Shown one piece after another: positions 21,099 to 42,534 of a stretch of DNA of 64,000 nt. Position 1 is the stretch's first letter. Every line of letters begins with the position of its first letter. Source of the DNA: Thermotoga neapolitana DSM 4359. GTDB taxonomy: Bacteria > Thermotogota > Thermotogae > Thermotogales > Thermotogaceae. The stretch covers positions 1,644,729-1,708,728 of the forward strand of contig NC_011978.1 of the NCBI RefSeq assembly GCF_000018945.1. Reading direction: 5' to 3'. The notes beneath the pieces were generated by a model, which was given only the letters and a program-made list of their open reading frames with translations, was not told the DNA's origin and did not search any database. A program made the translations under genes and the position numbers.

Positions 21099-21106
21099 TC
21101 CCCCTC
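21081..21106 (-). terminator. Intrinsic terminator of clpC inside the tsaB 3' end
   Basis: Arms of 8 bases (GAGGGGGA, 21088-21095, and TCCCCCTC, 21099-21106) enclose TAG, the tsaB stop codon. On the minus strand the stem is followed by TTTTTCTTT, so it terminates clpC transcription. On the plus strand no U-run follows. Confidence 0.8.
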
Positions 21107-23483
21107 AATTTACTTTCTCAACTTCTCTTGCAACCTCGAGTATCAGTTTTTCACCGTCGAAGTCCACCCTTACCGTCTGACCTTCTTTGACCTCGCCTGC
21201 TATGATCATCCTGGCCAGAGGTGTCTCTATCTCCCTTTCAATGAGCCTTCTCAGCGGTCTTGCTCCGAACGTTGGATCGTACCCTTTCTCTGCGAGGTAC
21301 TCTTTTGCTGCATCGGTGATGGTCAGTCTTATGTTTCTGTCCTTCAAACGACCTTCGAGTCTCTTCAACATGATCTCCACTATCTGTTTCATGTGTTCCT
21401 TGGTGAGTGGTTTGAACACGACCACGTGGTCTATCCTGTTTATGAACTCCGGTCTGAAGTAGTGTTTCAACTCCTCCCTCACTTTTTCCTCGATCTCCTC
21501 AAAGCTTTTACCTTCTCTGACGAAGTTCAGGATGAGATCGCTTGCTATGTTGCTCGTCATTATTATGATCGTGTTTTTGAAATCCACGACGTTTCCTTTG
21601 GCATCGGTCAGTCTGCCATCATCCATGATCTGAAGCAGTATGTTGAACACGTCCGGATGAGCCTTTTCTATTTCGTCAAGCAGGATCACACTGTACGGCC
21701 TTCTTCTCACAGCCTCTGTGAGCTGACCACCTTCTTCGTATCCTACGTAACCCGGTGGTGCTCCAATCAGTTTGGAAACGGCATGCTTTTCCATGTATTC
21801 ACTCATGTCGATTCGAATGAGGGCGTTTTCACTTCCAAAGAGCACCTCAGCGAGTGTTTTTGCGAGTTCTGTTTTTCCAACCCCTGTTGGTCCCAAAAAG
21901 AGGAACGTTCCAACAGGCCTGTTTGGATCTTTTATCCCCGCGCGTGCTTTCCTTATGGCATCTGCCACAACCCTGACGGCCTCTTCCTGATCCACCAGTC
22001 TCTGATGTATGATCTCTTCAAGTTTGAGCAACTTCTCCTTCTCCGACTCCACTATCCTGGACACGGGCACACCAGACCAGGATTCCACAACTTCCGCTAT
22101 TTTCTCCGCTGTGACGACCGGTCTTCCACTCTTCAAGGACTCGTATTCGCTCTTCAGTCTGAAAAGTTCTTTCTTGAGATCCGCAGCTTCTTTGTACTGG
22201 GACCTCACGGTGAGCTCGTCGATTCTGTTCTCGAGCTCTTTTATCTTTCTTTCGAGTTCCTGAAGCCTTGCCTCATCCTTTTCCTGTTTTGAGAAGCCCA
22301 GTTTCACCCTCGCAGCCGCTTCATCCAGCAGGTCGATCGCCTTGTCCGGGAGGAATCTGTCTGTTATGTATCTTGCAGAAAGCTTTGCAGCGGCCTCTAT
22401 TGCTTCGTCTTCTATTTTGACCTTGTGATGTTCTTCATAAACCCTCTTGAGACCTTTCAGGATCTCTATTGTTTCTTCCACACTGGGTTCTTTCACCAGA
22501 ACCGGCTGAAATCTTCTTGCGAGCGCTTTGTCCTTTTCTATGTGTTTTCTGTATTCATCCAGCGTGGTCGCTCCTATGACCCTGATCTCACCTCGGGCAA
22601 GGGCAGGTTTCAACATGTTGGCAGCATCCATTGCCCCTTCAGCTGCTCCCGCTCCAACTATGGTATGGATTTCGTCGATGAACAGAATGGTTTTTTCTTT
22701 CTGTTTCATCACTTCGTCGAGGAAGGATTTCAGCCTTTCTTCGAACTCACCTCTGTACTTGGTACCAGCTATCATCCTGCCAAGGTCGACCATCAACACA
22801 CGCACATCTTTCAAAGGATCGGGCACTTTTCCTTCCACGATCCTCTGCGCAAGTCCCTCCACGATGGCTGTCTTTCCAACTCCAGGATCTCCGATGAGTA
22901 TCGGGTTGTTTTTCGTTCGCCTCATCAAAATCTCGATCACGCGCTCGATCTCTTTTTCCCTTCCTATAATGGGACCAATCTTTCCTTCCCTGGCAAGCTT
23001 CGTCAGATCTGTGGCAAACGCCGTGATCGGTGATTGCTTATCCATAAACTCATCTTCGTGCTCTTTCACTTTCTGAAGCACCCTTTCGTAGTCCACTCCG
23101 TACTTTTTGAGAACGCGCGCTGCATGCGTTGAACCGTCCCTCAGGAGTCCCAGAAGGAAGTGAAGAGGCCCCACGTCTTTCTGCTTGAAGAGCCTGGCTT
23201 CCTTTCTTGCCAGTTCCAGGATGTACGAAAGTTCCCTGGAAACGTACACCTGATCGGAGAATCCATAGAATATTCCGTACTGGGAATCGATGTAGCTCTC
23301 CAGTTCGTCGGCGATCTCTTCCGTGTTCACATTGAGTTCTTCCAGTATCTTTGTGACCTCGTTTTCGTCGTACAGGAGCTGAAGGAGAATGTGCTCAGGT
23401 CTGAGTAAATTCTGGTTCCTGTCCTTAAGATCCTCTACACTCTTTTCAAAGATATCCTTCATCTTGTCGTTCAGGTTTCTCAT
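21105..23483 (-). CDS. clpC: Clp/Hsp100 AAA+ ATPase, ClpC-like
   Basis: This 792-residue Hsp100 protein unfolds or disaggregates proteins. It has an N-domain, AAA+ module 1 (GDPGVGKT, then FIDEIHT), a short coiled-coil middle domain (about residues 405-460) and module 2 (GPTGVGKTEL, then LLDEIEKAH, pore loop GAPPGYVGYEEGG). The middle domain is about half the ClpB length, which points to ClpC. The region after IMTSN that in ClpC carries a VGF/LGF-type ClpP-docking tripeptide is shorter here and I see no such tripeptide. The start at 23483 (ATG) fits GGAGGTG upstream; the GTG at 23492 is within it. A CIRCE-like element precedes it. Confidence 0.92.
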   Translation of the reverse strand: MRNLNDKMKDIFEKSVEDLKDRNQNLLRPEHILLQLLYDENEVTKILEELNVNTEEIADELESYIDSQYGIFYGFSDQVYVSRELSYILELARKEARLFKQKDVGPLHFLLGLLRDGSTHAARVLKKYGVDYERVLQKVKEHEDEFMDKQSPITAFATDLTKLAREGKIGPIIGREKEIERVIEILMRRTKNNPILIGDPGVGKTAIVEGLAQRIVEGKVPDPLKDVRVLMVDLGRMIAGTKYRGEFEERLKSFLDEVMKQKEKTILFIDEIHTIVGAGAAEGAMDAANMLKPALARGEIRVIGATTLDEYRKHIEKDKALARRFQPVLVKEPSVEETIEILKGLKRVYEEHHKVKIEDEAIEAAAKLSARYITDRFLPDKAIDLLDEAAARVKLGFSKQEKDEARLQELERKIKELENRIDELTVRSQYKEAADLKKELFRLKSEYESLKSGRPVVTAEKIAEVVESWSGVPVSRIVESEKEKLLKLEEIIHQRLVDQEEAVRVVADAIRKARAGIKDPNRPVGTFLFLGPTGVGKTELAKTLAEVLFGSENALIRIDMSEYMEKHAVSKLIGAPPGYVGYEEGGQLTEAVRRRPYSVILLDEIEKAHPDVFNILLQIMDDGRLTDAKGNVVDFKNTIIIMTSNIASDLILNFVREGKSFEEIEEKVREELKHYFRPEFINRIDHVVVFKPLTKEHMKQIVEIMLKRLEGRLKDRNIRLTITDAAKEYLAEKGYDPTFGARPLRRLIEREIETPLARMIIAGEVKEGQTVRVDFDGEKLILEVAREVEKVN

Positions 23484-23507
23484 ACGTCTCACCTCCGGTG
23501 AAATATA

Positions 23508-23534
23508 TTAGCACTTAATTATTAAGAATGATAA
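23508..23534. promoter_or_regulatory. CIRCE-like HrcA operator upstream of clpC
   Basis: TTAGCACTT, nine bases, GAATGATAA. Against the CIRCE consensus (TTAGCACTC-N9-GAGTGCTAA) 15 of 18 arm positions match with the exact 9-base spacing. It overlaps the proposed clpC -10. A perfect CIRCE precedes hrcA at 41487-41513 in the same window. Confidence 0.6.
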
Positions 23535-23556
23535 ACAAAAAAGTAACAATAAGCAA
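23528..23556 (-). promoter_or_regulatory. Probable clpC promoter
   Basis: On the minus strand TTGCTT (23556-23551), a 17-base spacer and TATCAT (23533-23528). The -10 lies inside one arm of the CIRCE-like element, an arrangement suited to repression. Confidence 0.55.
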
Positions 23557-41486: not shown

Positions 41487-41513
41487 TTAGCACTCAAAAG
41501 AAAGGAGTGCTAA
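41487..41513. promoter_or_regulatory. Perfect CIRCE operator
   Basis: TTAGCACTC, nine bases, GAGTGCTAA is an exact CIRCE, the binding site of HrcA. The right arm overlaps the AAAGGAG ribosome site of hrcA, so it may also form a hairpin in the mRNA that hides the start of translation. Confidence 0.96.
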
Positions 41514-41514
41514 A

Positions 41515-42534
41515 ATGAGAAGGCTCTCAAATAAGGGTGAACACCAGAGAAACCTGAACGACCGCCAGAGAAAGGTACTTTACTGCATTGTGAAAGAGTA
41601 CATAGAAAACAAAAAACCCGTCAGCTCACAGAGGGTTCTCGAAGTGAGCAACATAAATTTTAGCAGTGCCACCATAAGAAACGATATGAAGAAACTGGAA
41701 TATCTTGGTTACATATACCAGCCCCATACCTCGGCTGGCCGGGTCCCAACGGACAAGGGACTCAGATTCTACTACGAAGAAATGGTAAAGCTCTCCAAAG
41801 AAACCGAAGAACTGAACCTGGAGGTGGACACCTTCAGGTCCATTCCGCTCGCAGATCCAGAAAAGGTCCTGCTTCTGGCTGGAAATCTTCTTGCCCGGCT
41901 GGCTGAAGGGTACGTCCTCATAGAAAGACCAAATCCCAGAGATTTGAAAATACTCAGGGTGATGCTCATACCGGTATCCGAGGATTACCTGATTTTCTCG
42001 ATACTGACAGAATTCGGCATTTCGAAGATCACTCCCATCAGAATCCATGAGGATTTGAATTGGGAGGAAATAGAAAGACAGCTGAACTTCCTTTTGAGGG
42101 GAAGAACAGTTGAAGACGTGCTAACAGGAAAGGTAGAAACTCTCAGAGGAAGCGGTATTCTCAAACTCATAGAATCCGTGATGAACGAAAAACTGGAAAG
42201 GTACATAGACGTTGGTTTTGAAAATCTCCTGAAAGATGACACGCTCTCTCTGGAAGATATAAAGCACCTTCTGGAAGAGATAAAGGACCATCGTTTCCTG
42301 GAGAGTCTCATAGGAAACGACAAAGACGTCACGGTGAAGATCGGAAAAGAGATCGGGAGTAAAAAACTGGAAAGATTCGCCGTTTTTTCCGGTAGATACT
42401 ACAAAGGATCATCGCCGATTGGAAGTGTTCATCTTTTCACCTCAAAAATCACCAGGTACGACAGAAACCACAGGGTTTTCAACTACGTACTCAACAGACT
42501 TTCAGAGTACTTCACATCGGCCGCCAGGAGGTGA
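41515..42534 (+). CDS. hrcA: Heat-inducible transcription repressor HrcA
   Basis: HrcA binds CIRCE and represses chaperone genes; its folding depends on GroEL in studied bacteria. The 339-residue protein has an N-terminal winged helix (LNDRQRKVLYCIVKEYIE, then SSATIRNDMKKLEYLGYIYQ), the conserved PHTSAGRVPTDKGLRFY segment, a GAF-like centre and a dimerisation part. ATG 41515 lies just after the CIRCE, so the gene is autoregulated. Confidence 0.97.
   Translation: MRRLSNKGEHQRNLNDRQRKVLYCIVKEYIENKKPVSSQRVLEVSNINFSSATIRNDMKKLEYLGYIYQPHTSAGRVPTDKGLRFYYEEMVKLSKETEELNLEVDTFRSIPLADPEKVLLLAGNLLARLAEGYVLIERPNPRDLKILRVMLIPVSEDYLIFSILTEFGISKITPIRIHEDLNWEEIERQLNFLLRGRTVEDVLTGKVETLRGSGILKLIESVMNEKLERYIDVGFENLLKDDTLSLEDIKHLLEEIKDHRFLESLIGNDKDVTVKIGKEIGSKKLERFAVFSGRYYKGSSPIGSVHLFTSKITRYDRNHRVFNYVLNRLSEYFTSAARR

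Follow-up and report, generated by a model that had tools for sequence, protein, structure and literature searches.

The question raised by this locus of Thermotoga neapolitana is whether a CIRCE-like element upstream of an Hsp100 gene serves as an operator for HrcA. We analysed a stretch of 64,000 nt (hereafter the window), which carries at 23508-23534 of the + strand the sequence TTAGCACTTAATTATTAAGAATGATAA, composed of TTAGCACTT-AATTATTAA-GAATGATAA and read on the coding (-) strand of the gene as TTATCATTC-N9-AAGTGCTAA. Against the CIRCE consensus used here (9-bp arms TTAGCACTC and GAGTGCTAA with a 9-bp spacer), the arms match at 15 of 18 positions and the spacer is exactly 9 bp, the same count as given in an earlier reading of the locus made from the sequence only. 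This putative operator spans the interval from 51 to 25 bp upstream of the Hsp100 start codon (ATG). The sequence-only reading also named a perfect CIRCE at hrcA, which we find at 41487-41513 (+) with 0 mismatches. These are the two sites in the window with at most three mismatches, against a mean of 0.02 in 100 dinucleotide shuffles.

On the whole genome, a single contig of 1,884,562 bp, four CIRCE sites with at most three mismatches are detected and the reversed control pattern gives none. They lie before hrcA (0 mismatches), before groES (1), in the gap between a KaiC-like gene and argR (2), and before the Hsp100 gene (3). Summed genome by genome over 45 genomes of the order Thermotogales, there are 151 CIRCE sites versus 17 control-pattern sites. 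Since 17 control sites in 45 genomes correspond to about 0.4 per genome expected by chance for a lone three-mismatch site, the case for an operator rests on conservation and not on the single site.

Identity of the Hsp100 gene

The gene occupies 21105-23483 on the - strand and encodes 792 amino acids from an ATG at 23483. The GTG at 23492, chosen as start in the list of open reading frames, falls inside the Shine-Dalgarno sequence; this ribosome binding site, GGAGGTGA at 23489-23496 (-), is kept in relatives. The sequence-only reading called the gene clpC. The T. neapolitana genome has three Clp ATPases of ClpC size, but the protein is not a canonical ClpC, for the ClpP-docking loop is absent. 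In detail, the loop motif [LIVM]GF in the second ATPase domain (D2) is missing from all 23 proteins of the window gene's type (type A). Type B also has no ClpP loop, likewise type D in the proteins with a readable loop region. The type C paralogue occurs in all Thermotogales genomes searched, and its docking loop [LIM]GF is present in 12 of 12 tested. When compared with solved structures, D2 of the window protein aligns without a gap at the loop position to the ClpB chain 1qvr, while the alignment to the ClpC chain 6em8, which has the loop, shows a gap there. The best NCBIfam model is ClpB (TIGR03346), with 1039 bits, below the curated cut-off of 1232 and split into two stretches with the long middle domain left out; no ClpB over this cut-off is found in the 45 genomes of the order. 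Taken together, the absent loop, the two structural alignments and the ClpB best model lead us to take the Hsp100, with a ClpB-like D2 and a middle domain of ClpC length, for a ClpP-independent, ClpB-like protein and not for the ClpC of a ClpCP protease, a function that we infer from such sequence features.

Promoter of the Hsp100 gene

The earlier reading proposed a TTGCTT-17-TATCAT promoter. Both boxes are present (23551-23556 and 23528-23533, - strand), but even the closest species do not share TTGCTT, and TATCA within TATCAT is conserved as part of the promoter-proximal CIRCE arm in which it lies. A candidate -35 GTTACT at 23542-23547 (-), followed 17 nt on by a candidate -10 TAATAA in the CIRCE spacer at 23519-23524 (-), appears to fit better. 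In the seven Thermotoga species T.AC.T of this -35 is invariant except for one T/C change, TAA of the -10 is kept across the genus, and in the closest species a TTAC-like box with a TAATAT-like box 17 bases on is retained. Using the 7-bp spacing reported for T. maritima, the transcript is predicted to start near 23512, with a leader of about 29 nt that falls within the common class of 26-32 nt (PMC3636130); with TATCAT as -10 the leader would be about 38 nt. An automatic promoter and terminator scan gave nothing on the relevant strand.

Conservation of the site in relatives

Among the type A orthologues in Thermotogales, all 23 with readable upstream DNA, from three families and ten genera, have a CIRCE with 14-17 of 18 matches, which begins about 42-69 bp upstream of the point where the protein match starts. 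A score of 14 is reached in only 2 of 9200 dinucleotide shuffles of the 150-bp upstream regions, though this null overstates independence because the upstream sequences are related by descent. Outside the order, the orthologue of family f5 has a CIRCE of 16/18, and that of family f11 has one of 17/18 with a second copy of 16/18. Altogether, each of the 25 orthologues whose upstream DNA could be read has the element in this position, so that the conservation of both half-sites, proposed earlier as a check within Thermotogales, is seen in 23 of 23 orthologues there and in two more families.

Two observations concern individual genomes. The orthologue in G036 (G036:C1:895079-897456, L028) is split over two frames, by a frameshift or a sequencing error. 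In genus g8 of family f2, two genomes (G004, L012; G007:C98) carry a type A Hsp100 that is 80-84% identical to the window's and was probably acquired from Thermotogaceae in both; in G004 the gene is accompanied by a CIRCE of 14/18.

HrcA, CtsR and the candidate regulon in Thermotogota

In the window, hrcA itself (41515-42534, +; Pfam HrcA and HrcA_DNA-bdg) follows the perfect CIRCE and precedes grpE and dnaJ. At the level of the phylum, 99 of 103 genomes have HrcA and 0 of 103 have CtsR, by a search which detected CtsR in Lactococcus as positive control. The other CIRCE sites of the order that we inspected mostly precede groES, hrcA, dnaK, hsp20 or clp genes. Genomes of family f2 mostly carry no more than two or three such sites, at hrcA and groES where inspected.

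The Hsp100 paralogue behind the CIRCE is not always the same. Genera g10 and g11 have no type A; there the type D Hsp100 is preceded by a CIRCE, mostly with 0-1 mismatches, whose spacer contains a -35 TTGACA. The sister clade of type A in family f10 has a CIRCE of 14-16/18 in six of eight cases, and all seven of its members with a readable loop region possess the ClpP loop. In the Clp tree, type A and the f10 clade, the genes with a CIRCE of this type, form one branch with an SH-aLRT of 98, thus the link between HrcA and Hsp100 is probably old.

In g11 the gene row is CIRCE, KaiC-like ATPase, HTH protein, type D Hsp100 (L078:1559-5544). A KaiC-like gene with an HTH-like partner and a CIRCE-like site is also found in the T. 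neapolitana genome, where the site with two mismatches (G000:C1:291692-291718; L003:1501-1527) lies between the KaiC-like ATPase gene and argR. Similar sites are present in two further Thermotoga genomes, and the element may be an ArgR box instead of a CIRCE.

A composite GAAC-CIRCE element in other genera

In genera g2, g3, g5 and g12-g14, each of the 14 type A promoters has TTAGCAGTC or TTATCAGTC as promoter-proximal arm, and in the same 14 the motif GAAC stands 17 or 18 bases before GTC of this arm. The f5 orthologue has GAAC-N17/18-GTC as well; in f11 both copies have it, the whole GAAC-CIRCE unit being doubled. GAAC-N17-GTCTAW has the form of an extracytoplasmic-function (ECF) sigma promoter. 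For most Thermotogales genera with the gene, Thermotoga excepted, there is about an even chance that the operator is one half of a composite switch, in which a GAAC-N17/18-GTCTAW promoter of ECF (RpoE) type would have its -10 within the CIRCE arm TTAGCAGTC, and the Hsp100 would answer to both RpoE and the release of HrcA.

Of 14 genomes viewed across the phylum, 12 have the same motif GAAC-N17/18-GTC before htrA, T. neapolitana included; one genome lacks it, and in one the start was not resolved. In automatically cut 130-bp htrA regions it is found in 10 of 11, against 0.9% of shuffles. Of the known heat-shock genes of Kosmotoga, two rise at 77 C, namely rpoE and the heat-shock protease (PMC5674127), and a study of T. 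maritima reports that no motif for RpoE was found (PMC3636130); the element before htrA may be the RpoE promoter motif that was sought there. Genome-wide, GAAC-N17/18-GTCTAW is not above its reversed control and most conserved-looking matches lie in coding DNA, therefore the motif alone defines no regulon. The ECF reading is a good lead rather than a demonstrated one.

The other ClpC paralogue was considered as a further ECF target and rejected, with 0 of 6 upstream regions checked having the motif and one possible case in G034. Besides, several of twenty rpoE loci (L105-L124) have GAAC-N17/18-GTCAA close to where the rpoE frame begins, which may serve autoregulation or else be coding sequence.

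Assessment of HrcA control

Our preferred reading, with a probability of roughly 0.86, is that the element is a true operator for HrcA over the promoter and start of the Hsp100 gene, which would give repression, release upon heat and co-production with GroESL and GrpE/DnaJ. Alone the site looks weak, but each relative that could be checked has it in this position, hence HrcA very probably controls the gene. The control suggested by the sequence-only reading thus gains support from the half-sites in 23 of 23 orthologues and two more families, with HrcA present and CtsR absent, for what is still a putative operator. Counting against it are the three mismatches in the window and four in G036, together with the drift of the promoter-proximal arm within Thermotoga (TTATCATTC, TTATCAAAC); for Mycoplasma gallisepticum, two mismatches are said to be the most that a CIRCE can have and still function (PMC5138195).

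Such features could also be those of a decaying ancestral CIRCE, which works in other genera but is too weak for HrcA in Thermotoga, where the gene would now be constitutive. Most of Thermotoga has 3-4 mismatches versus 1-2 in several other genera, and the GAAC element conserved in those genera has been lost at the Hsp100 gene in Thermotoga. However, pairwise identity among the seven Thermotoga species is 90% in the arms but only about 39% in the stretch lying 31-70 bp further upstream, and AGTGCTAA in the distal arm does not vary, which makes decay unlikely. It is still less probable that the inverted repeat is an RNA leader hairpin setting mRNA stability and no operator at all. A CIRCE that is transcribed has been reported to influence mRNA stability, but the transcript start predicted above falls within the element, which would leave most of the hairpin out of the transcript, and Rfam gives no match for it. 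A chance likeness to CIRCE, for all the 0.4 sites per genome expected from the control pattern, is already refuted by the conservation in 25 of 25 orthologues and can be practically dismissed.

Under HrcA control, we would expect HrcA on the operator to block RNA polymerase at normal temperature. On heating, chaperonin would be drawn away and HrcA would lose its activity; the Hsp100, a ClpP-independent, ClpB-like unfoldase, would then be made together with GroESL and GrpE/DnaJ. Here binding, repression and heat release are projected from the known Bacillus-type HrcA mechanism, and a disaggregase function of the Hsp100 is likewise presumed.

Relation to known systems

The arrangement resembles the class I CIRCE/HrcA system of Bacillus in its consensus (TTAGCACTC-N9-GAGTGCTAA), in the placement over promoter and start, and in an hrcA with its own perfect CIRCE, but differs in having an Hsp100 as target and three mismatches in the arms. 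Control of Hsp100 genes by HrcA is of a known kind: HrcA controls clpB in Mollicutes (PMC5138195) and, as cited in PMC3192767, clpL in Lactobacillus gasseri. The Thermotogota case, where such control is predicted, would be a new member of this kind, and the candidate composite promoter in relatives is the more novel part. Unlike in those two systems, the Thermotogota Hsp100 is ClpC-sized, ClpB-like and without a ClpP loop, and the operator stands at different paralogues in different genera. There is also a likeness to Firmicutes, where a repressor acts over Clp ATPases in heat shock, e.g. CtsR with sites at clpC, clpB and clpP in Staphylococcus epidermidis (PMC11298487), but none of the 103 Thermotogota genomes has CtsR. 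Our literature search found no description of the Thermotogales HrcA regulon; the Hsp100 may already be listed as an HrcA target in RegPrecise, the database used by the T. maritima paper (PMC3636130).

The analysis makes concrete a predicted HrcA regulon for Thermotogota with an Hsp100 in it, in which the link between regulator and chaperone would be retained though the controlled paralogue varies by genus. It also puts forward a candidate motif for RpoE promoters, for which the T. maritima study had found none (PMC3636130).
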